Assembly (NCBI GenBank): GCA_937120495.1
Contig: CAKZJW010000018.1
Span: 1-64,000 of the forward strand
DNA: 64,000 nt
Reading direction: 5' to 3'
DNA from: an uncultured Oligoflexia bacterium
GTDB taxonomy: Bacteria > Bdellovibrionota > Bacteriovoracia > Bacteriovoracales > Bacteriovoracaceae
This document shows positions 1,173 through 59,634 of the stretch, one piece after another. The position numbers and the translations under genes were made by a program. Position 1 is the first letter of the stretch; every line of letters begins with the position of its first letter. The notes below the pieces were generated by a model. The model saw only the letters and a program-made list of their open reading frames with translations. It was not told where the DNA came from and ran no database searches.

Positions 1173-1673
1173 ACTGAGGTCTGTGTCTTCAAAAATATCA
1201 ACTTCAGGAATCAGTCCAATTTGTTCAAATATTTCTTTTCTAATAAACAAGCAGTGATCAAGATAAAAAATATGTCTTAGGTCTCCTCGAACTTTATTGG
1301 ACCACCAAGATGTAAACTTCAATAGAGGGTGATTTAAATCAAACTTATGAGTAAAGGCCCCCCAGTATAAATCTTCTTGGTTATTCTGTAGTTCTGCGAA
1401 TGAATCAACGCTAAGTAGACTTCTTGGATGGTGAAGAAGAAGCATGTCTCCTTTCGCATGTTGAATACCAGTATTTAGTCTCTTTGCTCTAGACGTAGTG
1501 TCTACAGAAATAAGTTTAAAACCACTTTTAATGATGAGCTCTTTTGTGCCATCAGTACTCCCTGAGTCTACACAGATAATTTCAGCTCCTGAGAGATTTT
1601 TAAGAAGATTAAATGTAGTTTGTATATAACCGTTTTTAATTTCATTAAATGTAGGAATGATTACTGACAACAT
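1173..1673 (-). CDS. Family-2 glycosyltransferase, N-terminal half only
   Basis: Residues 1-167 of the open frame 639-1673 form the first half of a GT2 enzyme: SVIIPTFNE at 3-11, CVDSGSTDGT at 34-43 and FEDTDLS at 161-167, which is the acceptor-side ED motif of the family. The pattern resembles the rSAM/selenodomain-associated GT2 group (TIGR04283-like), though the sugar and acceptor cannot be told. The rest of the fold should follow DLS but is replaced by NRPS sequence. Codon use matches the AT-rich core, so this is probably the true left end of the core. It diverges from the DUF167 gene with only 28 bases between the start codons. The start may be ATG 1673 or TTG 1670, because AAGGG lies immediately upstream. 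Confidence 0.65.
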
Positions 1674-1701
1674 ACCCTTAGCTTAGCTAATATGGTGTAT
1701 T

Positions 1702-2013
1702 ATGAAAACAACCTTCGATCAACGAGATGATCATCTAATATTGCGAGTTAGCATAAGAGCTGGAAGTTCGAAAAATGAGTTGGTAGGGAAGTTTGGCGAT
1801 CCGGCGAGACTAAAAATAAAAATTCAGGCTCAAGCAGTAGACGGACAAGCCAACAAGGAGCTTATCAAGTTTCTCTCAAAGACCTTTAACGTGGCCAAAA
1901 GTACAATTGAGATTATTCGAGGCGAAATATCAAAACAAAAAGATCTAAGAATAGAAATTACTGGACATGAGCAATCGGAAATAGTTAGAATAATCAATAA
2001 CTTATCTAAATAA
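1702..2013 (+). CDS. DUF167 family protein (YggU-like)
   Basis: This 103-residue protein shows the DUF167/UPF0235 pattern: a VSIRAGSSKNELVG strand near residue 16, then LKIKIQAQAVDGQANKELIKFLSK (about 36-60) and a closing segment IEIIRGEISKQKDLRIEI. The family is small, widespread and of unknown biochemical role; it often sits beside RNA or cell-division genes. It ends 17 bases before the methyltransferase gene and may be co-transcribed with it. Complete, with no anomaly seen. Confidence 0.85.
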   Translation: MKTTFDQRDDHLILRVSIRAGSSKNELVGKFGDPARLKIKIQAQAVDGQANKELIKFLSKTFNVAKSTIEIIRGEISKQKDLRIEITGHEQSEIVRIINNLSK

Positions 2014-2030
2014 TTAATTTTGAGTATGCG

Positions 2031-3161: not shown

Positions 3162-3171
3162 GGAAAGTTAG

Positions 3172-5622: not shown

Positions 5623-5795
5623 ATTAACCTCTCGTTATTGTATTGAACAATATTACAGTGAGAAGGCATTAGTTTGTTGGAATTTGAAATCTTTACATGA
5701 AATGTCTAAAAAATTATCATTTGTGAAGGCTATAATATTGATAACTTAGAAGGGGTGGGAAGCAATCTATAGATCACTTCCCAGATATCGATACT

Positions 5796-6464
5796 TTAGA
5801 ATAAAACGTTTTTATTTTTCTTTTTCTTAGAGAATTTTAAAAGAGTTTGTAGGTCATCGTTTTCTTGAATCTCTTTAAGAGTAAGCATAACAATTACTCC
5901 CGAACCTTCGCCTTGAGCATTATTGCCCATGACAGTTAATACACCTATGTTTTTTCCATTTATCTTAAGTCTCACACCTGCACCAAGAGTAAATTCACTA
6001 GGTAGCTTTATTGGTAAGAAGAATCCAAAAGCATCTTTTGATCCATAGAAAGTCATATCAAAGGCTTTAGGTATATTGAATGCTAATGCTGGAAGTTCTC
6101 CTCCAATTACAAAAGGAAAACCACGTCCATCTGGAAGTGTTTGAGCAGGAACTGATCTAAAGTGATCACTCTCAACATCTTTTAGATCAAATGCAACTTG
6201 GATCATTGAGCCACCTTCAAGCCTGTTTCCAACAGTAATGGTTGAATTAGGCATTTTAGGTAATGGAACTGTAAGCGCCAGTGGAAGGTCTATTCTTTCA
6301 AGCCCAACACTTAACATAATTTTACCGTCAATAATATTTATTTGAGGACCATCAACACCAGGAATCTTTGGAGTCTTACCTTGCTCAAGACATGCTGTAG
6401 AAGTAAATAATAAAGTGAATAAGAGTGCAAAACGCGTGATAGCGGTAGCATTAAAATATTTCAT
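5796..6464 (-). CDS. Putative lipoprotein of unknown function
   Basis: I place the start at ATG 6464, because AAAAGGAA lies 5 bases upstream and the sequence then begins MKYFNATAITRFALLFTLLF with a lipobox TSTAC at about residues 21-25; an in-frame ATG further upstream lacks these features. The mature part of about 195 residues is rich in beta-strand-like segments, with many proline and glycine residues and a basic tail KKKKNKN. I do not recognise a family. The gene diverges from the cytochrome oxidase operon across a 147-base intergenic region. Confidence 0.75.
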   Translation of the reverse strand: MKYFNATAITRFALLFTLLFTSTACLEQGKTPKIPGVDGPQINIIDGKIMLSVGLERIDLPLALTVPLPKMPNSTITVGNRLEGGSMIQVAFDLKDVESDHFRSVPAQTLPDGRGFPFVIGGELPALAFNIPKAFDMTFYGSKDAFGFFLPIKLPSEFTLGAGVRLKINGKNIGVLTVMGNNAQGEGSGVIVMLTLKEIQENDDLQTLLKFSKKKKNKNVLF

Positions 6465-6611
6465 AAGAATTCCTTTTCGATTATGATTTTTTATTAACGC
6501 ATAGCTTGTCGGCAAATTTTGCCTCACCCTTAAACAAATCTTCGTTTTTCTAATTACAAACTTTTATTACTGGAGTAAAATAGGCGCAGTTATTATAAAA
6601 AAGGGGATACT

Positions 6612-7055
6612 ATGAAATCACTATTATTAGTTTTAGTTATGTCTATTGCTTTCGCTTCAAGCGCGATGGCTTTTGATGCAAAAAAATTCTTTAAAGCCAA
6701 TTGTACAGCTTGTCACTTAATTGGTGGTGGAGATAAAACAGGACCAGATCTTGCTGGTGTTGGAAAAAGAAGAAAAGTTGAGTGGATTGTAAAGTTCATG
6801 AGCTACCCAGATGGAATGATCAACGGTGACTCTGATGAAGAAGACTATCCAGTTAAAAAAGGTAAACTTAACGGAAAAGACATTAGCTATGGTGATAAAG
6901 TAGCTTACTCTTTATTTCAAATGTACAAGCCACAAGTTATGACTGAGCAAGAAATTGATGCTGAACAAGTTAAAGCATTAATTAAATATATTGATTCAGT
7001 ATCAACGACACCTAAAGGTAAAATAACTAAGTTTAAAGTTCTACCAATTAAATAA
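6612..7055 (+). CDS. Secreted monoheme cytochrome c
   Basis: A 147-residue protein with a Sec signal peptide (residues 1-20, ending SSAMA) and one heme site CTACH at 31-35. TGPDLAGVGKR follows, as in class I cytochromes, with Met ligand candidates at YPDGMI or near YKPQVM. It should be periplasmic and carry electrons to the adjacent caa3-type oxidase. The ribosome site AAGGGGAT is 4 bases before the ATG. It is the first gene of the oxidase operon; the next gene follows after 2 bases. Confidence 0.88.
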   Translation: MKSLLLVLVMSIAFASSAMAFDAKKFFKANCTACHLIGGGDKTGPDLAGVGKRRKVEWIVKFMSYPDGMINGDSDEEDYPVKKGKLNGKDISYGDKVAYSLFQMYKPQVMTEQEIDAEQVKALIKYIDSVSTTPKGKITKFKVLPIK

Positions 7056-7057
7056 AA

Positions 7058-8077
7058 ATGAATAAGCAGTACCGTCCAATCATTATCTGGTTAATCATAA
7101 TTTGTATCATGGTTTTTCTCATGGTGATGATTGGCGGTATTACTCGTCTAACTGACTCTGGACTTTCAATCGTTAACTGGAGACCACTAATGGGGAGCAT
7201 TCCTCCTCTAAATGAGACGCAGTGGTTGGAAGTTTTTAATAGCTACAAAGCATTTCCAGAGTATCAAAAAATCAATGCTGGAATGAGCTTGTCTGAGTTT
7301 AAGCAAATTTTCTTTTGGGAATATTTTCACAGACTCTTTGGCCGTCTAATTGGAATGGTTTTCTTTTTCCCTTATCTTTATTTCTTTCTAAAAAAGAAAC
7401 TAGATAAAAAATTAAATTTAAAACTTCTAGTGGCATTTATCCTTGGTGGATCTCAAGGACTACTTGGTTGGTACATGGTTAAGTCCGGTCTTGTCGATAG
7501 GCCAGATGTTAGTCATTTTAGATTGGCCGCACATCTTGGTTTAGCCTTTTTAATAATCGGTTATATTTCTTGGATTATATTTGGGCTAATTCAAACAGAA
7601 AAAATGCAATTAACTAGAAAACCAAAAATTTACAAAATCATTATGATTTTTCTTGGGCTTCTTAGTTTTCAAATAATTTATGGAGCATTTGTCGCGGGCC
7701 TTGATGCTGGAATTGGTTATAATACTTTTCCAAAGATGGGACGCAGCTGGATCCCTAACGTTTTATTTACATACCCAAGTTTAATAAAAGATCTTTTAGA
7801 AAATAACGCAACAGTTCAATTTATTCATAGAATTGGTGGGTGGAGTATTTTGTTATTTTCTTTTGTTTTCATTTATTTAAAAAAGAAACTAACAAATCCT
7901 TTTCAAAGAAAGTCTCTGACTCTACTTACAGGAATGATTCATTTACAATTTATTCTTGGTGTCGTGACAATTATTTTATCTGTTCCTCTTCATGTCGCAC
8001 TACTTCATCAACTAGGTGCATGTATTCTTCTTATTCTTACTGTTAATGCGATGAGAAAATTTAAGCCAATCGAGTAA
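7058..8077 (+). CDS. ctaA: Heme A synthase (COX15/CtaA family)
   Basis: A 339-residue polytopic membrane protein that oxidises heme O to heme A for the cytochrome oxidase. It shows the COX15-type pattern GGITRLTDSGLSIVNWRP in the first periplasmic loop, WEYFHRLFGRLIG with the heme-binding His, LLGWYMVKSGL, LAAHLGLAF, and FIHRIGGW in the C-terminal half. The length of about 340 with about 8 membrane segments fits the proteobacterial form rather than the shorter Bacillus form. It lies between the cytochrome c and SCO genes; heme O synthase (ctaB) is at the other end of the same operon. Confidence 0.92.
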   Translation: MNKQYRPIIIWLIIICIMVFLMVMIGGITRLTDSGLSIVNWRPLMGSIPPLNETQWLEVFNSYKAFPEYQKINAGMSLSEFKQIFFWEYFHRLFGRLIGMVFFFPYLYFFLKKKLDKKLNLKLLVAFILGGSQGLLGWYMVKSGLVDRPDVSHFRLAAHLGLAFLIIGYISWIIFGLIQTEKMQLTRKPKIYKIIMIFLGLLSFQIIYGAFVAGLDAGIGYNTFPKMGRSWIPNVLFTYPSLIKDLLENNATVQFIHRIGGWSILLFSFVFIYLKKKLTNPFQRKSLTLLTGMIHLQFILGVVTIILSVPLHVALLHQLGACILLILTVNAMRKFKPIE

Positions 8078-8213
8078 AATTAATTTAGCTAATTGATAGG
8101 TAAGAGCTTAGAATTTCTGACTAATTCACATAAATTTACTTGCCTAGTCACACAGAAAAGTTGATACTAACGCCTAAGTAAATTTTTAAATAGCCCACCG
8201 CTAGAAGATAACT

Positions 8214-9077
8214 ATGAATGCGTTTGTACTAAAAATGTTTATGCTGTTTGCAGTAATTTTTTCTCATTGTTTAAGTCTAAACAATGCCTTTGCTATTGGT
8301 GGAGCCGGACCTTTAGATCAAGATGAACTTAAAGGTACAAAAAACGAAAGACCTGCATTTATGGACAAGGTCGGAATTGATGAAAACCTTGGTACTCAAC
8401 TCGACTTAGACTTAACATTTACTGATGAAACAAATACTCCTGTAAAATTAGGTAAGTACTTTCATAATAAGCCAGTATTTCTAATGCTTATTTATTATAA
8501 GTGTCCAACTCTTTGTAATACACATTTAAATACTTTGATGAATACCTTTAAAGAGTTAAAACTCAAAATTGGTAAAGACTATGAATTTGTTGCAATCTCT
8601 ATAGATCCAGCTGAAAGTCATCAAGTAGCTAAAATGAAAAAAAGAGCTTACTTGGATCAGTATGGTGATGAAGCCCAGGAGAGTGGGTGGCACTTTCTAA
8701 CTGGTTCTCAAGAAAGCATCGACAAGGTTACAGATCAGATCGGATTCCGTTATGCGTGGAATGCTGAAGAAAAAGAATGGGCCCATGCAGCTGCTGCATA
8801 TATCTCTACACCGACGGGAAAATTATCTTATTACCATTATGGTTTAAATATAAATCCAAAAGTACTTAGACTCTCTTTAGTTGAGGCGAGTGAAGGAAAA
8901 ATTGGAACAGTTATGGATCGAGTTTTACTGTTTTGTTTACAGTACGATCCTAATAAAAAAACTTATGCATTTTACGCTTATAACTTAATGCGAGTAGGTG
9001 CGTTTTTGATCGTTGTAGTTTTAATAATCTTTTTTATTATTTTCTGGCGAAAAGAAAAGCGCTCAAAGCAAAATTAA
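8214..9077 (+). CDS. SCO1/SenC copper chaperone for cytochrome oxidase
   Basis: A 287-residue protein of the SCO1/SenC thioredoxin-fold family, which delivers copper to the CuA site of oxidase subunit II. It has an N-terminal signal peptide, the copper-binding CPTLC at 97-101, the FVAISIDPAES segment typical of the fold, a His in the WAHAAAAY region, and a C-terminal membrane segment (about 257-280) followed by a basic tail. The C-terminal anchor is less usual than the N-terminal anchor of most SCO proteins. It is 11 bases upstream of coxB. Confidence 0.9.
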   Translation: MNAFVLKMFMLFAVIFSHCLSLNNAFAIGGAGPLDQDELKGTKNERPAFMDKVGIDENLGTQLDLDLTFTDETNTPVKLGKYFHNKPVFLMLIYYKCPTLCNTHLNTLMNTFKELKLKIGKDYEFVAISIDPAESHQVAKMKKRAYLDQYGDEAQESGWHFLTGSQESIDKVTDQIGFRYAWNAEEKEWAHAAAAYISTPTGKLSYYHYGLNINPKVLRLSLVEASEGKIGTVMDRVLLFCLQYDPNKKTYAFYAYNLMRVGAFLIVVVLIIFFIIFWRKEKRSKQN

Positions 9078-9088
9078 AGGAATGTGGT

Positions 9089-10060
9089 ATGGAAAAAATT
9101 AGTGCTCTTCTATACAAGCTATTTGGATTCTCTCTACCTGAGCAAGCAAGTTCGCAAGCTCATTTAGTAGATGACCTTTATAGTGTTGTTATGATTTTGA
9201 GTATTTTGGGGTTTGTTGGTGTTGTTGCTGCAATAACATTTTTTGTAATTCGTTTTCACAGATCGAAAAGCGAAAAGTCAGCTTATATTCCTCATAACAC
9301 TCTAGCTGAAACAATTTGGACAGTTGTTCCAACAATTATCTTTTTGGGAATTTCATTTTGGGGTCTTTGGGCTTTCTATAAAATGAATGAAGTACCAGAT
9401 AATGCTTACAAGATTAAAGTTACTGGTAAGCAGTGGATGTGGGAATACACTTACGATAGAGATGGAAAGGAAGCATCTGTAACAGATGTTATGTATGTTC
9501 CAATCGATACTCCGATTGTTTTAGAGATGACTTCTGTTGATGTTCTTCACAGTTTCTTCGTACCTTCTTTTAGAGTTAAAAGAGATACAGTTCCTGGAAT
9601 GAAAACAATGGTTACTTTTACTCCGACAAAGCTTGGTGACTTTAGAATCTACTGTGCTGAGTTCTGTGGTACTTCTCATTCAAAAATGAAAGGAACAGTT
9701 AGAGTTGTAACGAAGAAAAGATTTAACCAGTGGTTAAACTTTGAAATAAAAGAAGCAAATATCACTGATCCAGTTGAGCTTGGTTCAAGACTTTTCAACA
9801 GGAAAGGTTGTACAAGTTGTCACTCAATTGATGGTTCAACAATTGTAGGTCCTTCATTAAAAGGTATTTGGGGAAAAGACTCAAAGTCTACAGATGGTGC
9901 AACTCATAAGGTTGATGCTGATTATATCAGAGAGTCAATTCTTAAACCTCAAGCTAAGATTGTTCAAGGCTTTGATGGCGTAAGAATGAATTCTTTTGCT
10001 GGTCAATTATCTGAAAAAGAAATTGATTATATTATTGAGTATTTAAAAACTGTTAAATAA
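9089..10060 (+). CDS. coxB: Cytochrome c oxidase subunit II with fused cytochrome c domain
   Basis: 323 residues: two N-terminal membrane helices (about 28-52 and 70-95), then the CuA cupredoxin domain with KQWMWEYTY, HSFFVPSFRVK and the copper ligands in CAEFCGTSHSKM, then a C-terminal class I cytochrome c domain with CTSCH at 241-245. The fused cytochrome makes this a caa3-type oxidase subunit, accepting electrons from a soluble or neighbouring cytochrome c. No cleavable signal peptide is obvious. It lies between SCO and coxA in one operon. Confidence 0.95.
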   Translation: MEKISALLYKLFGFSLPEQASSQAHLVDDLYSVVMILSILGFVGVVAAITFFVIRFHRSKSEKSAYIPHNTLAETIWTVVPTIIFLGISFWGLWAFYKMNEVPDNAYKIKVTGKQWMWEYTYDRDGKEASVTDVMYVPIDTPIVLEMTSVDVLHSFFVPSFRVKRDTVPGMKTMVTFTPTKLGDFRIYCAEFCGTSHSKMKGTVRVVTKKRFNQWLNFEIKEANITDPVELGSRLFNRKGCTSCHSIDGSTIVGPSLKGIWGKDSKSTDGATHKVDADYIRESILKPQAKIVQGFDGVRMNSFAGQLSEKEIDYIIEYLKTVK

Positions 10061-10085
10061 AAAACAATTAAAATAGGGAGGGGTT

Positions 10086-11669
10086 GTGTCAACACCTGGA
10101 ACAAACTACATAAATTGTGAAAAGGGAATTTGGTCTTGGCTTACGACAATTGATCATAAGCGAATTTCTTTAATGTACTTTTACACAATACTTGGCTTCT
10201 TTTTATTAGGTGGCCTTTTTGCAATCTTATTAAGAACAGAGCTTCTAACTGCAGAACCGATGTTCATGAATGGTAATCAATACAATAGAGCAATGACTTT
10301 GCACGGATCTTTAATGGTCTTTATGGTTATTGTTCCTGGGATTCCTGCTCTACTTGGAAACTTCTGTTTACCAATTATGGTCGGAGCTAAGGACGTTGCT
10401 TTTCCAAAGTTAAACTTACTTAGTTGGTATCTACTTATTGGTGGTGCTCTAATCGCAATGCTTTCTCTTTTTTGGGGAGGAGTTGATACAGGTTGGACAT
10501 TTTATACACCGTATTCTTCTAAGTCCGCCGACGCGGTAACCATGGTGGTCTTTGGTGCCTTTATTATGGGCCTAAGTTCTATAATGACTGGACTTAACTT
10601 TTTAGTAACAATCCACAAGCTAAGAGCTCCTGGGATGACTATGATGAGAATGCCTCTATTTGTTTGGTCGTTATATGCGACAGCAATTATGCAGGTTCTT
10701 GCAAGTCCAGTTCTTGGGATTACTCTACTTCTTATTGTAGCGGAGAGAGTTTTTGGAATTGGTATCTTCGATCCTAATTTAGGTGGAGATCCGGTTTTAT
10801 TTCAACATTTCTTTTGGTTCTATTCTCACCCTGCTGTTTACATTATGGTTGTACCGGCGATGGGAGTTGTATCTGAAGTTATTTCAACTTTTTCTCAAAA
10901 AACAATTTTTGGTTATAAGGCAATTGCATTTTCTTCACTTGGAATTGCATTCATCTCATTTCTAGTTTGGGGACATCATATGTTTGTTTCTGGTCAATCA
11001 GATTTAGCCGGAACAATCTTTTCAGTTTTAACAATGCTTGTTGGGGTTCCAACTGCAATTAAAATCTTTAACTGGATAGCAACTCTTTATAAAGGAAGAA
11101 TCAAGTTAGATACTCCAATGATTTGGACTCTGAACTTTCTTGCAAATTTCACTATCGGTGGTGTGACTGGACTTTTCCTTGCAGCCGTAGCTGTAGATGT
11201 TCATGTTCATGATACATATTTTGTTGTTGCTCACTTTCATTACACAATGCTTGGTGGTGCTTTAACAGGACTATTCTCAGGACTTTATTACTGGTTCCCT
11301 AAAATGACAGGAAGAATGTATAACGAGACTCAAGGTAGAATTGCTGCAGTTTTAGTTTTCATTGGTTTCAATGCTACTTTTATTCCACAATTCATTATGG
11401 GATCTCAAGGGATGCCAAGAAGATACCATACTTATGATGGTGTATTTGCTCCTTATCATATGGCCAGTACGTTTGGATCTTATATATTAGCGGCAGGATT
11501 TCTTTTCGCTGTTTATATTTTAGTTCGCGATATGTTTAAAGGTGAAAAAATTGAAGATAAAAACCCTTGGGGTGGAACGACTCTTGAGTGGACAACTCAA
11601 ACTCCTCCAATCCATGAGAACTTTGAAGAAATTCCAACAGTAACAGGGAGTCCTTATGAGTACCGTTAA
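10086..11669 (+). CDS. coxA: Cytochrome c oxidase subunit I
   Basis: The 527-residue catalytic heme-copper subunit has the low-spin heme His in MTLHGSLMVF, the CuB His-Tyr pair in WFYSHPAVYIMV, the CuB His pair in WGHHMF, and the heme a3/a ligands in VHDTYFVVAHFHY. It reduces oxygen to water while pumping protons. The start is GTG at 10086, supported by GGGAGG about 5 bases upstream. It overlaps coxC by 14 bases at its 3' end, suggesting coupled translation. Confidence 0.97.
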   Translation: MSTPGTNYINCEKGIWSWLTTIDHKRISLMYFYTILGFFLLGGLFAILLRTELLTAEPMFMNGNQYNRAMTLHGSLMVFMVIVPGIPALLGNFCLPIMVGAKDVAFPKLNLLSWYLLIGGALIAMLSLFWGGVDTGWTFYTPYSSKSADAVTMVVFGAFIMGLSSIMTGLNFLVTIHKLRAPGMTMMRMPLFVWSLYATAIMQVLASPVLGITLLLIVAERVFGIGIFDPNLGGDPVLFQHFFWFYSHPAVYIMVVPAMGVVSEVISTFSQKTIFGYKAIAFSSLGIAFISFLVWGHHMFVSGQSDLAGTIFSVLTMLVGVPTAIKIFNWIATLYKGRIKLDTPMIWTLNFLANFTIGGVTGLFLAAVAVDVHVHDTYFVVAHFHYTMLGGALTGLFSGLYYWFPKMTGRMYNETQGRIAAVLVFIGFNATFIPQFIMGSQGMPRRYHTYDGVFAPYHMASTFGSYILAAGFLFAVYILVRDMFKGEKIEDKNPWGGTTLEWTTQTPPIHENFEEIPTVTGSPYEYR

Positions 11670-12303
11670 AGTTGATAGGAGAGTAGATCACTCTCATCAT
11701 TTTGAAAGTATGCAACAAGAGCACGAATCAGGTAAGCAAGGAACATGGCTTTTCATGGCTACCGAAGTAATGATGTTTGGTGCCTTATTTACAGCTTATT
11801 TTCTTTATAGAGGTAAGTATTTTGAATCTTGGGTTGAAGGTGGAGCTCTTCTTGACTGGAAACTTGGTGCACTAAATACTGTTGTACTTCTTTTTTCTTC
11901 TTTTACTATGGCGCTAGCTGTTCGTGAGACTCAGCTTGGGCATAATAGAAAAGCACTTAAATACGTTATCTTTACTACTGTTTGTGCATTTGCATTCTTA
12001 GTTGTTAAGTACTTTGAGTATACAGGAAAGATTCATCATGGACTTTTCCCAAGTGAAGGAATGTGGAGCTATGATGCTCAAACTCCTCAGCTTAGACTTT
12101 TTATGGTTGTTTATTTCATCATGACTGGTCTTCACGGGATCCATATTCTTATTGGTATAGCTTTGATGTTCTGGCTTATGAAAAGACTTAAGAACGAAGA
12201 GTTTTCAAAGGACTATTATACAGCAGTGGAAGGTGTTGGTTTATACTGGCACATCGTAGATTTAATTTGGATCTACTTATTCCCACTAATGTATTTAATG
12301 TAA
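11656..12303 (+). CDS. coxC: Cytochrome c oxidase subunit III
   Basis: A 215-residue membrane protein with the subunit III features KQGTWLFMATEVMMFGALF near the first helix, LHGIHILIG, and a final YWHIVDLIWIYLFPLMYLM. The ATG lies inside the end of coxA, with AGGGAG 6 bases upstream. The roughly 215-residue form with five helices is normal for caa3-type oxidases. Confidence 0.94.
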   Translation: MSTVKVDRRVDHSHHFESMQQEHESGKQGTWLFMATEVMMFGALFTAYFLYRGKYFESWVEGGALLDWKLGALNTVVLLFSSFTMALAVRETQLGHNRKALKYVIFTTVCAFAFLVVKYFEYTGKIHHGLFPSEGMWSYDAQTPQLRLFMVVYFIMTGLHGIHILIGIALMFWLMKRLKNEEFSKDYYTAVEGVGLYWHIVDLIWIYLFPLMYLM

Positions 12304-12312
12304 GGAGATAAA

Positions 12313-12597
12313 ATGAGTCATAATCATATAATGCCATTTAAGACGAACTTAACAGTATTTTTAAGTCTTGTAAGTTTAACAGCTCTAACTGTTTATACTG
12401 CAAAATTTGTAGATCTTGGAAGTTTCAATATTATTTTAGCGATGATGATCGCATCAGTTAAAGCTAGCCTTGTATTAGGTTGGTTTATGCACCTTAAAGG
12501 TGATAGCAATATGAATAAAGTTATTATCTTTTCTTCATTTTGCTTTGTAGCACTACTTGCGGGTATTTGTTACTCTGATTTATTTTTTAGATATTAA
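12313..12597 (+). CDS. coxD: Cytochrome c oxidase subunit IV (caa3 type)
   Basis: A 94-residue protein with three hydrophobic helices and the family pattern ASVKASLVLGWFMHLKGDS in the second helix and loop, as in prokaryotic COX4 (CtaF/CyoD-like) subunits. It helps assemble or stabilise subunit I. AAGGAGAT precedes the ATG. Its TAA stop shares one base with the start of ctaB. Confidence 0.9.
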   Translation: MSHNHIMPFKTNLTVFLSLVSLTALTVYTAKFVDLGSFNIILAMMIASVKASLVLGWFMHLKGDSNMNKVIIFSSFCFVALLAGICYSDLFFRY

Positions 12598-13481
12598 TGA
12601 TTAAAACATTAAAAAGCTTTTTTAAAATGAGTATCGTAGTTTTCGTCGTAATCAGCGCAATAGCTGGTTACGGCGTAGGCTTTCAAATAGAAGATACATT
12701 TAGCTTTTTAAATTTCTTCTCAATGATTCTTGGTACATTTTTAATTTCAAGTGGATCACTTTCACTAAACCAAGTCCAAGAATCCCATCGTGATGCAAAA
12801 ATGCCACGAACAGAACAAAGACCCATTCCAAGTGGGAAACTTTCAAAAAAAGTCGCTCTATCTATAAGTCTATTTAATATAACAACAGGGTCATTGATAC
12901 TTTTCTTTTTAGTAAGTGAGCTATCTTGTTACATAGGCCTTATAATAATCGTTTTATATAATGTTTTCTATACTATGCACTGGAAGCAAAAGTGGAAGTT
13001 TGCTGCCGTTCCAGGAGCAATCCCAGGTGCACTTCCTTGCACTCTTGGCTATGCAGCTGTTAATCCAAATATCTATTCTTCGGAGAGTATTTATTTATTT
13101 CTTGTTATGTTCCTATGGCAAATGCCACATTTTTGGACTCTAGCAATTAGGTATAAGGATGATTACGCAGCAGCTGATTTTCCAATACTACCTGTAGTTG
13201 TTGGTAATGATAGAACGATCTTTCATATTTCTTTCTATGTTTGGGCTTATGCCTTCCTAGCTATAATGTCTCCATTTTTTGTAGATTTTTATTATGCTTA
13301 CTTTATTATAGTAATACCTTTTGCCATGCTCGTTGTTTGGTTATTTTTTAAATATGTAAAAAATGAAAAGACAAACGATAAGGCTTGGTTACCATTCTTT
13401 TTGGCCACAAACTTTAGTATGTTGGCTTTTTTATTTGCTCCTCTTATAGATAAGTGGACGCCTATTATTATTCATACCTAA
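12597..13481 (+). CDS. ctaB: Protoheme IX farnesyltransferase (heme O synthase)
   Basis: A 294-residue UbiA-family membrane enzyme that attaches farnesyl to heme B. The first Asp-rich motif is in NQVQESHRDAKMPRTEQRP and the second motif region is in HFWTLAIRYKDDYAAADFPILP, both characteristic of CtaB/COX10. It starts on the last base of the coxD stop and ends the oxidase operon; pepN follows 14 bases later and could be read through. Confidence 0.94.
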   Translation: MIKTLKSFFKMSIVVFVVISAIAGYGVGFQIEDTFSFLNFFSMILGTFLISSGSLSLNQVQESHRDAKMPRTEQRPIPSGKLSKKVALSISLFNITTGSLILFFLVSELSCYIGLIIIVLYNVFYTMHWKQKWKFAAVPGAIPGALPCTLGYAAVNPNIYSSESIYLFLVMFLWQMPHFWTLAIRYKDDYAAADFPILPVVVGNDRTIFHISFYVWAYAFLAIMSPFFVDFYYAYFIIVIPFAMLVVWLFFKYVKNEKTNDKAWLPFFLATNFSMLAFLFAPLIDKWTPIIIHT

Positions 13482-13495
13482 ATTAAGAGATTCCT

Positions 13496-16072
13496 ATGCA
13501 AGAAATTAAACTAAGTGACTACCAAAGACCATTCTATTGGATCCGTTCTATTGAACTTGATTTTGATATATTTGAAGATAAAACGATCGTTAAAAGCTCT
13601 TTGCAAATTGAAAGAAATACAGAATTCAATACTCGAGAAGCTCTTGTATTAGATGGAATAGAACTTAATATACAAAGCCTTCAAATTAATAATTCAGAGA
13701 TTACAGATTATACTTATGAAAACGATAAATTAACTTTAAGTCCAAATGAAGATCAATTTGTAATGACTACAATTGTAGAAATTAAGCCTCATGAAAATGA
13801 TGCACTTGAAGGACTATACCAATCAGGTGGGATTTTTTGTACTCAGTGTGAAGCTGAAGGTTTTAGACGAATAACTTTTTATCAAGATAGACCTGATGTT
13901 ATGGCCAAGTTCACCACAAAGATTCGCGCAGATAAGTCAAAGTATCCAAATCTTTTATCGAACGGAAACCTTGTTGAAAATTTTGATCTAGATGATGGGA
14001 GACATTATACTAAATGGGAAGATCCATTTTTAAAGCCAGCTTATCTTTTTGCTCTAGTTGCTGGAGATCTTGCGAAGGTAGAGGATAGCTTTACTACAAA
14101 AAGTGGAAAGAAAGTTGCTCTTGAGATTTTTGTAGATCACGGGAATGAAGACAAGTGTGAACACGCTATGCGCTCTCTTAAAAACTCAATGAAGTGGGAT
14201 GAGGATGTTTTTGGTTTAGAATATGATTTAGATATTTATATGATCGTAGCAGTAGATTCATTTAATATGGGAGCAATGGAGAATAAGGGTCTAAATATTT
14301 TTAACTCTGCTCTTGTTCTGGCAAAAAAAGAAACGGCAACAGATAATGATTTTCAGGCGATTGAAGCCGTAATAGGACATGAGTATTTTCACAATTGGAC
14401 TGGAAATAGAGTAACATGCCGAGATTGGTTTCAGTTGACTTTAAAAGAAGGCCTGACTGTATTTAGAGATCAAGAGTTTTCAAGTGATATGCTTTCACGC
14501 CCGGTTAAAAGAATTGAAGATGTGGCCATGCTAAGAGCTCGCCAGTTTCCTGAGGATGCGGGACCATTAAGTCATCCAATAAAACCCAAGTCATATATTG
14601 AAATTAATAATTTTTATACTTCAACGATCTATGAGAAAGGAGCTGAGGTTATAAGAATGATTCACACTCTTATAGGTGCTGAAAACTTTAGAAAGGGTAT
14701 TGATCTATATTTTGAAAGACATGATAATAGCGCTGTAACGACTGAAGACTTTGTCAAAGCGATGAGTGATGCTTCAGGTATGGATTTAGAACACTTTAAA
14801 GTGTGGTATGACCAAAATGAAACACCAGTTCTCTCTATTGATTCAAATTATGAATCAGATAAAAAAGAATTCTCTTTCACTATTTCTCAAACAGTAAAAA
14901 CAAATAATTCAGACTTCGATTGTCTTTTTATGCCATTCTCATTTGCACTGTATGACTTTGATGGAAAAGAGGTATATAAAGATAAGTTAACTCTCTCTAA
15001 AAAAACGGAAACCTTTACCGTGAAGGGGATTGAATCTAAACCGATTGCTTCTTGGAATACAAATTTTACTGCACCTGTAATAGTTAAAGATAATAGCACC
15101 AAAGAAGATCTGATTATGCGAATGAGCCATGATAAAGATGCATTTAATCAATATGATGCTGCAAAACAGCTGTATTTTGATGAAATTTTATCTCATGTTC
15201 AAAACCTCCAGAAGGGGGGCAAATTAGAATTAAACCCTTCTTTTGTAGAAGCTTTTGGAAACCTTTTGAAAAATAGAGACCTTGAAGATGCTTTTGTTGC
15301 TTATGCGATTTCTCTTCCAAGCCAAATGCAACTAAACCAAAAATTAAAAATATACGATTATGAAAATGTAAAAAAAGCATTCTCTTTTGTAAAAGAAGGC
15401 TTAAGTACAAAATATTATAATGAATTTCTATCTTTATTTAATAAACTTAATGACGATGTATTTGATCTTAGCGCTGCAAGCATGGGAAAAAGAACTTTAA
15501 AGAAGGTATGTTTAAGCTATTTAGCAGCTTCAAAAAATGATGAGGTTTTCAATCTATTAGAGTTGGAATCAAAAAACTTTACTAATATGAACGATGAATT
15601 ATCTGTACTTCAAAATGTAGTTGAGTACTATCAGGATAAGCGAGAGTCGTTTGTTAAAAGTTTCTTTGAAAAATGGAATAATGACACACTTGTTATGCAA
15701 AAATGGCTATCTGTACTATCTAGTGCTTCTTATAACTCTATAGATGATATTGCTAAACTTGAAAATTCCAGTGTTTATAACTCCAAGGTTCCAAATCTAG
15801 TTCGAGCAGTTATGAGAAGTTTTACTCAACAAAACCCTTCATTATTTAATAAAGAAGATGGCAGTGGTTATCGTTATTTAGCGGACAAAATACTCATGAT
15901 TGACAAGTTTAACCCGTCTATGGCTTCTTCATTGGCCAAAATGATGGGACATGGAGATAAGCTTGATGATAAGCGCAGAGGACACCTTAAAGCCGAATTA
16001 GCCCGTGTATTCGAAGCAAAGCTATCTAAAGACACATATGAGGTTATTTCAAAGAATTTAAAGGTTTTTTAG
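13496..16072 (+). CDS. pepN: Aminopeptidase N (M1 family)
   Basis: An 858-residue zinc metallopeptidase that removes N-terminal residues from peptides. It has the exopeptidase motif GAMEN at 259-263, the zinc site HEYFH at 295-299 and the third ligand Glu318 in LTLKEGLT. The length and the C-terminal helical half fit the E. coli PepN type. It has no signal peptide, so it is cytoplasmic, useful for recycling of protein taken from prey or environment (inference). It follows ctaB closely, with a weak ribosome site (AGAGATT). Confidence 0.95.
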   Translation: MQEIKLSDYQRPFYWIRSIELDFDIFEDKTIVKSSLQIERNTEFNTREALVLDGIELNIQSLQINNSEITDYTYENDKLTLSPNEDQFVMTTIVEIKPHENDALEGLYQSGGIFCTQCEAEGFRRITFYQDRPDVMAKFTTKIRADKSKYPNLLSNGNLVENFDLDDGRHYTKWEDPFLKPAYLFALVAGDLAKVEDSFTTKSGKKVALEIFVDHGNEDKCEHAMRSLKNSMKWDEDVFGLEYDLDIYMIVAVDSFNMGAMENKGLNIFNSALVLAKKETATDNDFQAIEAVIGHEYFHNWTGNRVTCRDWFQLTLKEGLTVFRDQEFSSDMLSRPVKRIEDVAMLRARQFPEDAGPLSHPIKPKSYIEINNFYTSTIYEKGAEVIRMIHTLIGAENFRKGIDLYFERHDNSAVTTEDFVKAMSDASGMDLEHFKVWYDQNETPVLSIDSNYESDKKEFSFTISQTVKTNNSDFDCLFMPFSFALYDFDGKEVYKDKLTLSKKTETFTVKGIESKPIASWNTNFTAPVIVKDNSTKEDLIMRMSHDKDAFNQYDAAKQLYFDEILSHVQNLQKGGKLELNPSFVEAFGNLLKNRDLEDAFVAYAISLPSQMQLNQKLKIYDYENVKKAFSFVKEGLSTKYYNEFLSLFNKLNDDVFDLSAASMGKRTLKKVCLSYLAASKNDEVFNLLELESKNFTNMNDELSVLQNVVEYYQDKRESFVKSFFEKWNNDTLVMQKWLSVLSSASYNSIDDIAKLENSSVYNSKVPNLVRAVMRSFTQQNPSLFNKEDGSGYRYLADKILMIDKFNPSMASSLAKMMGHGDKLDDKRRGHLKAELARVFEAKLSKDTYEVISKNLKVF

Positions 16073-16080
16073 AAAAAAGC

Positions 16081-16107
16081 TAAAGTTATTCCTGACCATT
16101 CCGATAA
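16081..16107 (+). promoter_or_regulatory. Probable sigma-28 (FliA) promoter
   Basis: TAAAGTTA (16081-16088), then 11 bases, then TCCGATAA (16100-16107), matches the flagellar sigma-28 consensus TAAAGTTT-N11-GCCGATAA at 14 of 16 positions. The predicted transcript would begin about 18 bases upstream of the lipoprotein ATG at 16132, a sensible leader length. This suggests the downstream gene belongs to a motility- or predation-linked regulon. Confidence 0.75.
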
Positions 16108-16131
16108 GGTAATTGAATCGAGGGTGGTCTT

Positions 16132-16710
16132 ATGAAATATAACAAAATGATATCTTTTACTTTTTGCAACGGCTTATTGCTAATAAGTTTTGCTTCCATG
16201 CTAGCAAGCTGCCAAAAGGCCAATATTAAAATGACTGGTCATTTCTCAAAATTTAAAAGAACGAGATCTATTGCATCTCTTGGTGCTAAAAAATCATTTG
16301 ATCCAAAACAAGTCTATTTATATTGTTCTGTAAATTCAGTTGATATGAAGAACTGTTATTCTAAAAGCTTGGAAAAACATTCAATTAAAACAATTAAATC
16401 TTTTCCAGCTGTAAAGATTGAAGTCGATACTATTACGGATAGAATTATCTCAACTGTTAAAAATGATATCTCTAAAAAAGTAGAAAATAGAAAAGCATTT
16501 TGTATGAAAAATTCTGAATATTACTTTGAGAAATGTTTAACTCAATATGTAGAGAGAGATAGTATGGCCACATTGAATAAATACCAAAAAAGTAACCCCG
16601 GTATAAATGGCTACGAATATATTCATCTAAAAAGATCTATCGCAAGTGTATATAGTGATAAGCTTGAAAATTATAAAAACGATAAAGTTGATGCCGTAAA
16701 AAAAAAATAG
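16132..16710 (+). pseudogene. Putative lipoprotein, 5' part of a gene split by a poly-A frameshift
   Basis: The 192-residue product starts with a signal peptide and a lipobox LASC (about residues 25-28), followed by a mature part rich in Lys and Ser with repeated Cys residues (YLYCSVNSVDMKNCY and FCMKNSEYYFEKCL). No family recognised. It ends at AAAAAAAAAA-TAG (16698-16709). If the A-run had one more base, the frame would continue without a stop straight into the frame of 16734-17117, giving about 328 residues with the same Cys-rich, Lys-rich style. So the gene is probably one unit broken by a homopolymer indel (sequencing error, true mutation or slippage). A sigma-28-like promoter lies just upstream. 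Confidence 0.7.
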
Positions 16711-16733
16711 TAACTAGATTAAAAAATATACGA

Positions 16734-17117
16734 GTGTCAGAGTTTGGCACAAAGTGGATTTCGTCTGTTTACTCAATGAATCAGGCTTACTTAACTTGCC
16801 AAAGCAAAGTATTTGAAAAAATAAAAATTAGTGCAACTTTAAAAAAGAATCAATATCTTGTTGATAAGTATGTATGCTTAGATTATCTGTCTTCAAATCA
16901 AATAATAACATTGCTCAATAAAAGATTAAACTTTGTATTTGAAACTAGTTTATCTCAGTTAACTGATGAGATGGCTAAAGATAATAATACGATTCAAATG
17001 CTTGATAAGTATCTATCAAAGCCGAAATTCTACCATCTTTCGGATAAACATGGCTTAGTGAAAAAAAGGTTGATGCAAAATAGAATTAAAAGAATACCGG
17101 CTTCTATTATCGAGTAG
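16734..17117 (+). pseudogene. 3' part of the frameshifted lipoprotein gene
   Basis: The open frame is 127 residues from a GTG at 16734, but that start has no ribosome site. The same frame is open back to the A-run at 16698-16707 (residues IVTRLKNIR precede the GTG). Its product has the spaced Cys pattern of the upstream part (YLTCQ and YVCLDYL) and ends in a basic region RIKRIPASIIE. I regard it as the continuation of 16132-16710. Its last 11 bases overlap the convergent gene at 17107. Confidence 0.65.
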
Positions 17118-18138
17118 GAAAAAAAACTTTTCCGGATAATTTAAAATACGAATACAAACCTAATAAAAAATCAGGAATTATGCTTCCAAGATGTATAATT
17201 ACCGTCGCAGCAATAAGAGCTGATTCTTCTTGTGCTCTTAATTCTATATTTTCAATATTCAAAATAAGAGTAAAGACAGTAAAAAGTGTATAACTATAAA
17301 TTCCTATATTGGCCGGCGCGCTCGGAAGGGATAGACTTACACCCATAGCTCCTCCTATAAAGATTGAGATTGTAAAAGTTTGAAGTTGTTCAGGAATAGG
17401 ACACGATTTTAAAAGAAAATACATTGTGAGACTTCCAGCCATCCAATAAAGAATAGTATAAAGAACGATCTTTAAAAGGCTTTTTCTATCTTCTAATAAG
17501 CGAAACCCTTCTTGAATTTTTTCAAGGAGTGGTTGAATTATTTTCATTCCTTTAAACTTTAATCGTGTAACTATTTTTGTTAAAAGAGATGTTTTTATAA
17601 TTATTGTAATTACTAATATTATTAAACAAATTGCTAGTGCTAATACGCTAACTCCTTTGTTCATTAATGCGTAGAGCTCAGCTTGTCCAAAATAGTAAGA
17701 ACCTGTGATAACGATTATTACTATGATGATTGCGTCTAATAGACGCTCACTAAAACAAGTTGTTAAAGTTTTCACATAGTTAAGATTATGTAGTTTAGAA
17801 AGATAATACGGTCTAATGATTTCACCAGATTTACTAGGGAGAATAGTATTTAAAAGATGTCCAATTACGACACAGTGATAGAAGTCTTTAAAACGAATGT
17901 TTTCGCTTTTAAAAAAGAGTGACCATCTTTTTGTATGGATAAGATAAGTAACATAGTTGCACATTAAAGCGGCTATAAAGTAAGCTTTATTTGTTTTTGA
18001 AATTGAATCCATAAAAACATCAGTGTTTATATCTTTAAAAAGAAGATAAATAGCGATAGATGAAAACACTATACCTAAGGCGATAGGTATGATTTTAAAC
18101 TTGCTTTTATTTTGTTTCAAATTCACAGGGATGGCCAA
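17107..18138 (-). CDS. Flippase-like membrane protein (lysylphosphatidylglycerol synthase TM-region family)
   Basis: About 340 residues with around 8 membrane segments. The pattern matches pfam03706 (UPF0104, YbhN/AglD-like): TKRWSLFFKSENIRFKDFYHCVVIGHLLNTILPSKSGE, then FSERLLDAIIIV, then SLPSAPANIGIY. Members are proposed lipid or lipid-linked sugar translocators, or the membrane part of MprF. There is no synthase domain here. The start is uncertain: TTG 18138 gives MAIPVN; GTG 18126 is an alternative. Either start lies inside the end of the upstream gene (overlap 20-32 bases), so the two are translated together. Confidence 0.78.
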   Translation of the reverse strand: MAIPVNLKQNKSKFKIIPIALGIVFSSIAIYLLFKDINTDVFMDSISKTNKAYFIAALMCNYVTYLIHTKRWSLFFKSENIRFKDFYHCVVIGHLLNTILPSKSGEIIRPYYLSKLHNLNYVKTLTTCFSERLLDAIIIVIIVITGSYYFGQAELYALMNKGVSVLALAICLIILVITIIIKTSLLTKIVTRLKFKGMKIIQPLLEKIQEGFRLLEDRKSLLKIVLYTILYWMAGSLTMYFLLKSCPIPEQLQTFTISIFIGGAMGVSLSLPSAPANIGIYSYTLFTVFTLILNIENIELRAQEESALIAATVIIHLGSIIPDFLLGLYSYFKLSGKVFFPTR

Positions 18139-55288: not shown

Positions 55289-55645
55289 TTAGCCCTCTAG
55301 GCTTTCTTTTGTTTCTTCCACAAGTTTATCAAGACTTTTTGTGTCTTCAGATTCATCGACAAGATAAATTTTAGCGTGAAAGCCCATTTGTACTGGAAAA
55401 AATGTATTAAAAGGAACCTTTGCTTTTGGTTCTAACTTTTCTTCGTTAATGAATGACCCATTAGTGGCACCAAGATCGACGATAAGATACTCACCATTAT
55501 TTGAATGAATTTCTAAGTGATTTCTAGAGACACCCTCTGCAGTAACTGAGATATCATTAGATGCCCCACGCCCAACTGTAACTTTTTTGTTGTCACTAAA
55601 TTGATAATAATAGTCTTTCTGTCCGTCGTTTACTTTTAAATACAT
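55289..55645 (-). CDS. FHA-domain protein
   Basis: 118 residues, almost wholly one forkhead-associated domain: KKVTVGRGASNDISVTAEGVSRNHLEIHS with Arg and SRNH for phosphothreonine, and DLGATNGSFINEEKL. The end has an acidic tail. It is closely similar to the FHA domain at 58318 (both have an FNTFFP segment after KLEPKA or RLKPKA), so they are paralogues. Binding of phosphothreonine on a partner is expected. It is downstream of the 5'-nucleotidase start in opposite order: this gene is upstream and may be co-transcribed with it. Confidence 0.88.
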   Translation of the reverse strand: MYLKVNDGQKDYYYQFSDNKKVTVGRGASNDISVTAEGVSRNHLEIHSNNGEYLIVDLGATNGSFINEEKLEPKAKVPFNTFFPVQMGFHAKIYLVDESEDTKSLDKLVEETKESLEG

Positions 55646-56263: not shown

Positions 56264-56334
56264 TGTTAGAATTTCTTATATTTTGTGTTTTGGCTTACAA
56301 TTATTAAAAAGAATATTAATTTGAGGAACTTCTT

Positions 56335-58239
56335 ATGAAGAATTTTAAAAAGATTTTAAGCAACCAATCAGGTATCTCTCTAATTGAGATTACAATGGCC
56401 GCAGCAATGTCGGTAATTATCTCTTTAGGTGTTATGAAAACAAATGAGACCGGACAAAAAGGTATGACCAAGGTTGCAACTGACCTCGATTTAAGAATGT
56501 GGCAACAGCAAGTACTTTTTCCAAGATTAGCGGATAGTGATAATTGTCTCGCTACTTTTAATCCATCAGGAACAGGAAATCCAAACTCTGTAGATACAAG
56601 TCTTACACAGCTAAGAACTGTTTCAACTGTCTTTGCAACTGTTAATCAGTCAATAAGTACAGGTGGAACTGATAGTTGGACTTTGAAATCAATTAGAAGA
56701 GCTGCCTTTGAAAGCGATGGTTCCTCAGGTGGAAACAAAGGTATATGTAAGGTTACATTAACAGTTGAAAGAAATAATAAAAAAAGTTTTGGTCCAAGTA
56801 CAAGAGATATAAGTTTTCCGTTAATCTGTGTTAGAGCAGGAGGACCTCCTGCTAATCAGTGGTCAAGTTGTTCGACTCAAGGAAGTGGTGGTGATTCATT
56901 ATGGACAAAGCACCTTGATACAGAAGGAAATTATATTCACTCAGGTGGAGAATCTGTACGAGTTGGATTAGGTAATGATGCAGTTGATATTGCAGCTCCA
57001 TTTGAGGTTAGGCTTGCTAATGGGTTTGACTTTCCAGCTGGAACTACAGGGGTGCAAACATCAATGCTTATTCCTGCTGCCAATAATGCTCTTCAATTAG
57101 GGGCAAATTCAGCGATTTATGAAGATGCTTCCGGTTGTACTAATATTGTTAATGCTGCTTCTGGGGATCTAAATCCAGGGTTGAGGCACTGTACTTCAGC
57201 GACTGCAAATAATATTAATATTGGTAGTGAAGGCGGTGGAGTTGGAGTTAATAATAACCACTCAATGCTTTTAGGTTCAAGTGACTCTGTTATTAAGACA
57301 AACTTCTCAGTAATTCTTGGTGGATCAAATTCATTAGTTGAAGGGATTAACTCGTTTACCAGAGGAGCAGAAAATAAAATTAAAGGTAGTTTTGTAAATG
57401 CGATGGGTAAAGAATTATACGTTGATGGTAATTACGCCACAGCCCTTGGTTCAAACAGTATTGTAAAAGGTGACTCAGCTGTTGCTATCGGTAATGATAC
57501 CAGAGGTAACGGTCATTACTCAGTAGCAATTGGTCAAGGAGCTCACGCTACTCATAACCATTCAATGGTTCTTGGTTCAGGTAGAGTTACAGAAGATTCA
57601 CATACTCACCAATTTGTAGCGAACTTTAGAAATGGATATAAATTTATAACAACAAGAGGTGGAAATATTACGAATTGGCCACCTGCAACTTCAGGGCAAA
57701 GAACTCAGGCTGCAACTAGTGGTGTATTTATTTCACCAACTGGTAGTGTAGGTATCGGATATGAAGTGCCTTCGTACAAATTACATGTTAATGGTACGGT
57801 TGCTGGTACAGCAGACTTTGTTAACACTTCTGATAGAAGATTTAAAAAGAACTTTACTCCAATCTCTGAGGATGAAGTAAGTGCACTAGAGAAGATACTT
57901 AAAGTTAATGGCTTATACTTTGAGTGGAGACATGATGAGTTCCCTGGCTACAAGTTTAATAAAGGTCAAGATATGGGGGTTATTGCTCAAGAGGTTGAGA
58001 AAGTATTCCCTGAAGCAGTAAAAAGGGATTCAAAAGGTTATAGATCGGTAGCTTACGCTAAATTAGTTGCACCTATCATAGAAGCAATTAAAGATCTATT
58101 TGGAATGGTTTCTGAAAACTCTGAAGAAATCGATACTCTAAATAAGAAAGTTGATCAACTAGAGCAAGAAAACAGAGAAATGAAAGAAGCTCTTTGTGAA
58201 ATCAATCCAAAAGCTAGTTTTTGTAATCAGAAAAAATAA
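56335..58239 (+). CDS. Prepilin-leader, YadA-like head and S74 chaperone fibre protein
   Basis: 634 residues in four parts. Residues 1-33 are a type IV prepilin leader: cleavage after Gly13 before ISLIE, Glu at +5 (E18), then a hydrophobic helix. Residues about 40-300 are a pilin-like or unknown globular region. About 305-410 has YadA-head-like repeats with AxALGxNSxVKGDSAVAIGN-type turns (TALGSNSIVKGD, AVAIGNDTRG, SVAIGQGAHA, SMVLGSG). From about 495, SDRRFKKNF (Ser499/Asp500) opens a peptidase S74 chaperone domain, followed by a coiled coil to the C terminus. A trimeric, self-cleaving fibre is implied. Long GAGG precedes the ATG. Confidence 0.85.
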   Translation: MKNFKKILSNQSGISLIEITMAAAMSVIISLGVMKTNETGQKGMTKVATDLDLRMWQQQVLFPRLADSDNCLATFNPSGTGNPNSVDTSLTQLRTVSTVFATVNQSISTGGTDSWTLKSIRRAAFESDGSSGGNKGICKVTLTVERNNKKSFGPSTRDISFPLICVRAGGPPANQWSSCSTQGSGGDSLWTKHLDTEGNYIHSGGESVRVGLGNDAVDIAAPFEVRLANGFDFPAGTTGVQTSMLIPAANNALQLGANSAIYEDASGCTNIVNAASGDLNPGLRHCTSATANNINIGSEGGGVGVNNNHSMLLGSSDSVIKTNFSVILGGSNSLVEGINSFTRGAENKIKGSFVNAMGKELYVDGNYATALGSNSIVKGDSAVAIGNDTRGNGHYSVAIGQGAHATHNHSMVLGSGRVTEDSHTHQFVANFRNGYKFITTRGGNITNWPPATSGQRTQAATSGVFISPTGSVGIGYEVPSYKLHVNGTVAGTADFVNTSDRRFKKNFTPISEDEVSALEKILKVNGLYFEWRHDEFPGYKFNKGQDMGVIAQEVEKVFPEAVKRDSKGYRSVAYAKLVAPIIEAIKDLFGMVSENSEEIDTLNKKVDQLEQENREMKEALCEINPKASFCNQKK

Positions 58240-58244: not shown

Positions 58245-58278
58245 AAAGGCAGTAGGAAATAAAAGCCCGACTGCCTTT
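58245..58278 (+). terminator. Probable terminator after the fibre gene
   Basis: AAAGGCAGT (58245-58253) and ACTGCCTTT (58270-58278) pair over nine bases around a 16-base loop, with TTT followed by ATTTATT; the U-run is short, so termination may be imperfect. Confidence 0.7.
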
Positions 58279-58317: not shown

Positions 58318-59634
58318 ATGTACTTAAAACTTGAAATTGATGGTATCGAATCACTTCATCCCTTTGAAGGAATGAAGACTGTTACTGTTGGAAAATCAGA
58401 GCAATGTGATCTGATTATAGATCATCCAAGTATCTCAAGAATTCATGCGAAAGTGATCAGTAAAGGTGGAGAGTTATACTATGTTGATATGGACTCCAAA
58501 GAGGGCTCATTTTTAAATGAAGAGAGACTAAAGCCAAAAGCTGGTAATCCCTTTAATACATTTTTTCCTATAAGACTTGGAACTAATGTTTTTTTGTATC
58601 TCCTTGATGAAGAAATTCCTGTTGAAGATGAAGATGAAAGCGAAGTTGAAGAAATCGAGCAGGTAGCCAAACAAGAAGATGCTACCGAGCCTGAAAAAGT
58701 TAAGTATAAACCAAATATCTATGTTCCTGATTCAGCTGGAACTATTACTGAAGATGCTTCAAAGGTATTGAGCCATGAAGCCTTAACCGACAAAGAAGAT
58801 AGAAGAAAGAAAAGAAACTCCAGAAGACCTATCAAAAAAGAAAAAAAAGCAGATAGAACGCAACAGATGTTAATTGGACTTCTTGTTTTAATTGTAGCTT
58901 CATTTTTTTATTATAAAAGGTACACCAAGGAGCAAGACGAAATCTTACAAGCAAAACTTAAAAGAGAGAAGCTTCTTAAAAAAGAACAACTGGAACAAAG
59001 AAAAATTGAAAATAAAAATAAATTAACAAAAGAAAAATTAGCATCAAATAATATTCATAATAAAGAAATAGAAAAAATTAAATATTCAATTTTGGCAGAT
59101 AAATGTTTAATTGATAGTGAAATTGCTTTATGTGAAGGCTTTAAAAAATTCAAATCAAGAGGACTTCTTGAAGGATACACGAAATCACTGGAAACTGTTA
59201 CGTTAGTCATAGACGTTGCATCAAGCTTTAGGTTTTTAGAAAACATGTCTTCAACTTACACAGAGAAAGAAAAAGAAAAAGTTCTTGAGTTAGCAAAATC
59301 AGAAATGGGAGCTAGATTTCACGCAGGGTTCTTTATAAATAAAATGAAGTATAAAGTTAAGAAAATGTCAGAGATAACGAATAAGGAACGCTATATAAGT
59401 TTCTTAGACTTCTTTATGTCTGGTGGAGTTGAAGCTTTAAAAAAATCTAAAGGAATTGAAACAGTTATTCTGTTAGGTGTTGATGATCTGAAGTATCAAA
59501 GTCATATAAAACTTGATGTAAATAAAATAAAAAAATTAAAAGCAGAAGATTTAAGCTTTACTGTTAAAGCATTCTTCAATAGCTCTATGACTTCTAGTTT
59601 AGAAAAAACTATAAAGTCTTTAGAAATTCAATAA
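58318..59634 (+). CDS. FHA-domain membrane protein with coiled coil
   Basis: 438 residues: an FHA domain (about 1-100; VTVGKSEQCDLIIDHPSISRIHAKVIS with GSFLNEERL), an acidic then basic linker (about 104-180), a membrane helix at 182-199, a charged coiled coil (about 200-260), and a C-terminal domain of about 180 residues of unknown fold. The FHA domain faces the cytoplasm if the C terminus is periplasmic. The related single-domain FHA protein is on the other side of the fibre gene. The 3' end overlaps the cytochrome gene by 26 bases. Confidence 0.85.
   Translation: MYLKLEIDGIESLHPFEGMKTVTVGKSEQCDLIIDHPSISRIHAKVISKGGELYYVDMDSKEGSFLNEERLKPKAGNPFNTFFPIRLGTNVFLYLLDEEIPVEDEDESEVEEIEQVAKQEDATEPEKVKYKPNIYVPDSAGTITEDASKVLSHEALTDKEDRRKKRNSRRPIKKEKKADRTQQMLIGLLVLIVASFFYYKRYTKEQDEILQAKLKREKLLKKEQLEQRKIENKNKLTKEKLASNNIHNKEIEKIKYSILADKCLIDSEIALCEGFKKFKSRGLLEGYTKSLETVTLVIDVASSFRFLENMSSTYTEKEKEKVLELAKSEMGARFHAGFFINKMKYKVKKMSEITNKERYISFLDFFMSGGVEALKKSKGIETVILLGVDDLKYQSHIKLDVNKIKKLKAEDLSFTVKAFFNSSMTSSLEKTIKSLEIQ

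Follow-up and report, generated by a model that had tools for sequence, protein, structure and literature searches.

Modular pilins, such as PilB and PilC of Streptococcus sanguinis, consist of a small pilin module onto which a big functional module is grafted (Raynaud 2021, PMC8179133). PilD processes prepilins, and the same survey already lists N_methyl followed by S74 (IPR012902-IPR030392) among the most frequent modular-pilin architectures, reading the S74 region as a peptidase (PMC8179133). In the literature searched, we found no paper on this subject that names S74 or intramolecular chaperones with prepilins; the 2021 survey uses the InterPro number. CofB and TcpB of type IVb pili form a homotrimer atop the pilus in which a flexible linker connects the pilin domains with a C3-symmetric head, and TcpB initiates the pilus (PMC9565799, PMC5207764). 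They have neither S74 nor YadA heads, hold the trimer together through beta-rich domains of their own, and carry a secreted effector. The Kil/Tad pilus of Myxococcus, also a predator pilus, has several interchangeable tips made of modular minor pilins; these tips are heterotrimers of KilL, KilM, and KilN and lack an S74 or YadA module (PMC12075869).

Predation by Bdellovibrio depends on type IV pili (PMC4237445). In the same phylum, S74-terminated trimeric adhesive fibers are represented by the Bdellovibrio MAT fibers, which help the predator to recognize and invade prey and for which a tie to type IV pili has been raised merely as a possibility (PMC10769870). The MAT protein Bd3182 has an S74 domain with the motif SDxxxK that cleaves itself; the substitution S782A blocks this cleavage, which otherwise yields a trimeric tip 40 A across (PMC10769870). 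At their N-terminus, MAT proteins have a signal peptide and then a conserved beta-rich domain of about 130 residues. Phage S74 tail fibers (phrog_5668 and others) likewise pair a fiber tip with an intramolecular chaperone, and have no pilin module.

The window analyzed here is a 64,000-nucleotide stretch of a contig from an uncultured member of the Bacteriovoracaceae. One of its open reading frames, found exactly where the original prediction had placed it, encodes the protein P0001, whose layout is given in Table 1; the gene appears to be monocistronic. Like the modular pilins, P0001 joins a small pilin module to a big graft. Unlike theirs, its graft is a predicted trimeric fiber that has YadA-like heads and brings its own folding chaperone, so that three pilin modules would have to be joined. 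It was rejected as a MAT protein because it has a prepilin leader and pilin module in place of the signal peptide and beta-rich domain. MAT proteins are also longer.

Table 1. Features of the P0001 gene and its immediate surroundings, in window coordinates.
Feature	Position	Strand	Basis or remark
Ribosome-binding motif GAGGA	56323..56327	+	7 nt 5' of ATG; read in sequence
P0001 gene (prepilin / YadA-head / S74, 634 aa)	56335..58239	+	ATG at 56335; stop ends at 58239
Class III prepilin leader, residues 1-13	56335..56373	+	Predicted cut between G13 and I14; E18 is mature +5
Pilin alpha-1 helix, residues 15-66	56377..56532	+	N-terminal half membrane-spanning; AlphaFold2 and TcpA/geopilin profile match
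Pilin-module four-stranded sheet, residues 115-181	56677..56877	+	AlphaFold2, pLDDT about 78-90; A1 and A3 conservation
Gly/Ser-rich linker, residues 182-190 (QGSGGDS)	56878..56904	+	Sequence; pLDDT about 50
Fiber shaft, residues 191-298	56905..57228	+	Beta at low confidence in monomer model
About eight 14-residue YadA-head-like repeats, residues 299-425	57229..57609	+	Pfam YadA_head; BpaC, TAA, YadA matches
GSVGIGYEVPSYKLHVNG element 5' of S74, residues 469-486	57739..57792	+	phmmer-aligned to same element of MyRF (7dc3)
S74/ICA chaperone-protease, residues 499-563	57829..58023	+	Predicted self-cleavage between Ser499 and Asp500; dyad Lys504
C-terminal helix / coiled coil, residues 574-623	58054..58203	+	AlphaFold2, pLDDT >90 over most; predicted departure with S74
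Terminator-like hairpin (z -3.55), then AT-rich stretch	58245..58278	+	

The N-terminus of P0001 reads MKNFKKILSNQSG, followed by ISLIEITMAAA; this is a class III prepilin leader in which mature position 5 is Glu. Against the Pfam N_methyl model, P0001 alone scores 9.7 bits, below the cut-off of 21.2, so its leader taken alone is weak. Its relatives settle the leader as real: in an alignment of 30 prepilin+S74 homologs (alignment A1) the leader glycine, G13, is invariant, and 16 of these sequences match N_methyl at E<0.01. Cys179 is also invariant in these sequences and Cys71 nearly so, and the two probably form a disulfide. A profile of the N-terminal module matches the type IVb pilin TcpA (E 6e-5 over 94 profile positions) as well as geopilin, and AlphaFold2 predicts a long helix (16-66) and four strands (115-181), with a mean pLDDT of 77 for the module. 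No pilin appeared among the listed PDB matches when the predicted module was submitted to Foldseek, which counts against the pilin reading, and assignment of the pilin fold therefore rests on the sequence profile and predicted topology. Judged by its leader, predicted helix and strands, and Cys pair, the N-terminus is probably a type IV pilin module. The prepilin leader of the original prediction (G followed by ISLIE, with Glu at +5) is thus confirmed through the invariant glycine and the pilin profile matches, and a chance resemblance or a misread start codon was rejected on these grounds together with the N_methyl matches.

Two other readings of the N-terminal module can be weighed against this evidence. 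It might be a plain inner-membrane tether, so that the fiber, with no pilus involved, would stay periplasmic or be shed, much as in membrane-bound MyRF. The low leader score of P0001 itself, the lack of adjoining pilus genes, and an S74 fold closest to that of MyRF speak for such a tether. A simple tether, however, would have no need for the leader glycine, the Glu or Gln at +5, and the whole pilin module with its Cys pair, all of which are conserved family-wide, and we regard it as unlikely. The module might instead belong to a minor pseudopilin of the type II secretion system, part of the Gsp pseudopilus and not of a surface pilus. Some family members do match GspH or GspI models, and contig C75 carries a type II secretion operon with its secretin. 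Because the best profile match is to a type IVb pilin, pseudopili are mostly periplasmic, and a trimeric fiber with adhesin-type heads is no known part of a type II system, this assignment seems quite improbable.

At the other end of the protein, Pfam Peptidase_S74 matches with E 1.1e-15, and the full SDxxxK motif is present as S499-D500 and K504. Every one of the 30 homologs matches S74, and Ser499, Asp500, Lys504, Gly548, Gln552, and Pro559 are invariant in the 30 aligned members. The best Foldseek match of the region is the ICA domain of MyRF (7dc3; E 3.9e-6, TM-score 0.76 on the target), a crystallized intramolecular chaperone, and the PDB sequence match to the same domain spans residues 469-615. 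This evidence bears out the S74 chaperone claimed at the outset. By its motif, and by analogy with Bd3182 (PMC10769870), P0001 would cleave itself and trimerize. The family label "peptidase" (PMC8179133) might be taken to mean an enzyme acting on other substrates, yet in Bd3182 a domain with the same motif is an autoproteolytic trimer chaperone (PMC10769870), and an S74 domain placed C-terminally behind trimeric heads would be lost upon cleavage. An enzymatic role is therefore hardly credible.

The YadA-like repeats of the original prediction are likewise supported. Pfam YadA_head matches two stretches of P0001 (E 4.7e-10), the repeats follow the SxAxG-type pattern of YadA heads as read in the sequence, and over the middle of the protein the PDB sequence matches are to BpaC, to YadA, and to one more trimeric autotransporter adhesin. 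The proteins from which this motif is known are obligate trimers, which we count in favor of a trimeric fiber; the low confidence of the AlphaFold2 monomer model over residues 190-460 was counted on the other side. A classical trimeric autotransporter was rejected, as P0001 lacks the defining part, a C-terminal beta-barrel anchor of the YadA type, and has S74 and the coiled coil at its C-terminus. The original prediction had also seen a geometry conflict between a trimeric fiber and pilus-like assembly. This was overstated, given that TcpB and CofB are homotrimeric tip minor pilins with a flexible linker (PMC9565799, PMC8179133).

On balance we think it probable that P0001 is a modular minor type IV pilin bearing a homotrimeric adhesive fiber at the tip of a type IV filament, a reading grounded in its domain anatomy, its homologs, the conservation of the catalytic motif, and the presence of a prepilin peptidase and pilus genes in the same genome. 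The fiber is probably a sticky tip for retractable pili. Trimerization, cleavage, the position at the tip, the order of events, and the ligand (prey) are what we infer in the following scheme. The hydrophobic helix would insert the prepilin into the inner membrane, and PilD would cut between G13 and I14. In the periplasm, the C-terminal S74 domain and coiled coil would bring three chains together and fold head and shaft as a trimer. Self-removal of S74 between Ser499 and Asp500 would then leave a trimeric fiber (residues 14-499) connected by the Gly/Ser linker to three pilin modules. These modules would be incorporated at the tip of a type IV filament, most likely priming it, in the manner of CofB and TcpB, and the fiber would exit with the pilus through the secretin and bind a surface ligand, plausibly on prey. 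At 40 A, the Bd3182 trimer is narrow enough to go through a channel that admits a pilus (8 nm wide, PMC4237445). The capping subunit of tip complexes in T4aP and T2SS is without Glu+5 (PMC10191384), and the Glu+5 of P0001 was counted against a tip role. However, TcpB carries Glu5 and still initiates pili, and Glu5 mutants still assemble them (PMC5207764), so the residue is compatible with a position at the tip.

In the genome, about 91% complete, contig C3 carries a type IVa pilus locus, with PilB, PilT, PilC, PilA, a PilD-type peptidase, and a secretin together. The P0001 gene lies outside any pilus operon, among FHA, tRNA-editing, and 5'-nucleotidase genes, which was counted against the pilus-tip reading. 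A search for PilY1 in 36 genomes gave no match, and control genomes likewise gave none. Instead of the PilBTCA pilus, another type IV filament of the genome, for example a Tad-like one, might take up the module, since two further secretins are encoded on contigs C93 and C69 and modular minor pilins form the Tad-pilus tips with which Myxococcus preys (PMC12075869). The GFxxxE-type leader with a conserved pilin alpha-1, unlike Flp, makes this very unlikely. A prophage origin was rejected in view of the housekeeping neighbors and of a best phage match that covers 40% of P0001 at 29% identity. The two FHA-domain genes that flank P0001, at 55289-55645 (-) and 58318-59634 (+), are related to each other (42% identity over 98 aa); one is short and soluble, the other has a long C-terminal extension.

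No S74 protein other than P0001 was found in its own genome, and S74 was found in 84 of 129 genomes of Bacteriovoracaceae. From these, 115 S74 frames were fetched, with those under 1000 aa favored, and they include 48 prepilin+S74 proteins from 30 genomes. The rest carry a Sec or lipoprotein leader, lack a clear leader, or are truncated at a contig end. P0001 alone as query found no relatives in named genomes, and these were found with alignment A4. Leader-plus-S74 matches occur in five further families of Bdellovibrionota (genomes G173, G176, G203, G239, G357, G267, G262, and G221), and the leaders could be read in all eight genomes except G262. Homologs with this leader thus exist, so that their absence, which the original prediction had named as a refutation, does not hold, and the domain order recurs in related genomes as far as leader and S74 are concerned. 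The remaining element does not recur, a YadA-like head being present in only one of the 30 homologs, P0001 itself. Since prepilin+S74 fusions occur in dozens of related genomes, we view them as a real, exchangeable design and not as an oddity.

Some prepilin+S74 genes stand in tandem arrays. Six, of about 900 aa each and with Gln or Met at +5 instead of Glu, lie at 1871-17998 of locus L032 (G014:C141), and three, of about 525 aa, at 44-4769 of locus L087 (G136:C1), whose genome is a single contig and has 19 S74 matches. In locus L030 (G043:C87), from another family of the phylum, S74 genes in tandem encode proteins of about 300 aa whose leaders appear to be of the Sec type. In a sample of 92 S74 frames from many phyla, picked by similarity to the S74 domain of P0001, two have the pilin module, both from Bdellovibrionota, and no prepilin leader was found outside that phylum; because of the way the sample was picked, rarity of the fusion elsewhere is suggested but unproved. 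The usual leaders of S74 fibers are of the Sec or lipoprotein kind, in line with the original prediction. The 2021 survey lists N_methyl+S74, and its figure shows modular pilin representatives from many other phyla (PMC8179133), so the fusion may occur outside Bdellovibrionota.

A tree of 83 S74 domains, from proteins with prepilin and with Sec or lipoprotein leaders, shows the leader types mixed, with 20 changes by parsimony, at least five of them forced by well-supported branches. A topology that unites every prepilin S74 domain in one clade is rejected (p-AU 0.008). Read from this tree and test, the fiber tips of the family have moved between the surface-fiber chassis and the pilin chassis. 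We assert this exchange for the family alone, because the corresponding test for P0001 is not decisive. Its S74 domain groups with three lipoprotein-leader fibers (97/81), the best of which has 56% identity over 471-634, and its pilin module falls among those of other prepilin+S74 proteins (SH-aLRT 86), but keeping its S74 with the sisters of its pilin module is not rejected (p-AU 0.315). The specific swap was accordingly dropped. In the pilin-module tree, members with and without S74 are partly interspersed, and the module therefore looks like a reusable carrier. The genome of P0001 also encodes two prepilin-like carriers with neither S74 nor a Pfam match, at L148 2395-3975 (C36, 526 aa) and L147 3921-4820 (C149, 299 aa), possibly modular pilins with other tips.

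Of these results, the domain order was already known (PMC8179133). Its reading as a trimeric, chaperone-folded pilus tip is new, as are the occurrence of this order across Bdellovibrionota, the trading of tips with surface fibers, and the combination with YadA-like heads. The S74 region of the modular-pilin survey is suggested to be a trimer chaperone instead of an enzyme. A family of pilin-S74 fusions makes the link between MAT fibers and type IV pili directly testable, and it suggests what displays the fiber, at least in this class. More tentatively, and with considerable doubt, we propose that the S74 step licenses pilus assembly. Only triplets that had trimerized and shed their chaperone would prime pili, so that each tip would be checked and would be exchangeable, drawn from a pool shared with Sec and lipoprotein (MAT-like) fibers. 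If so, the gene arrays in G014:C141 and G136 would be repertoires of prey- or surface-binding tips.

Elsewhere in the window, at the contig end, the frame at 639-1673 (-) combines a family 2 glycosyltransferase with half of an NRPS condensation domain. GC content in it rises to 0.47, compared with about 0.35 alongside, and the frame is likely an assembly chimera.
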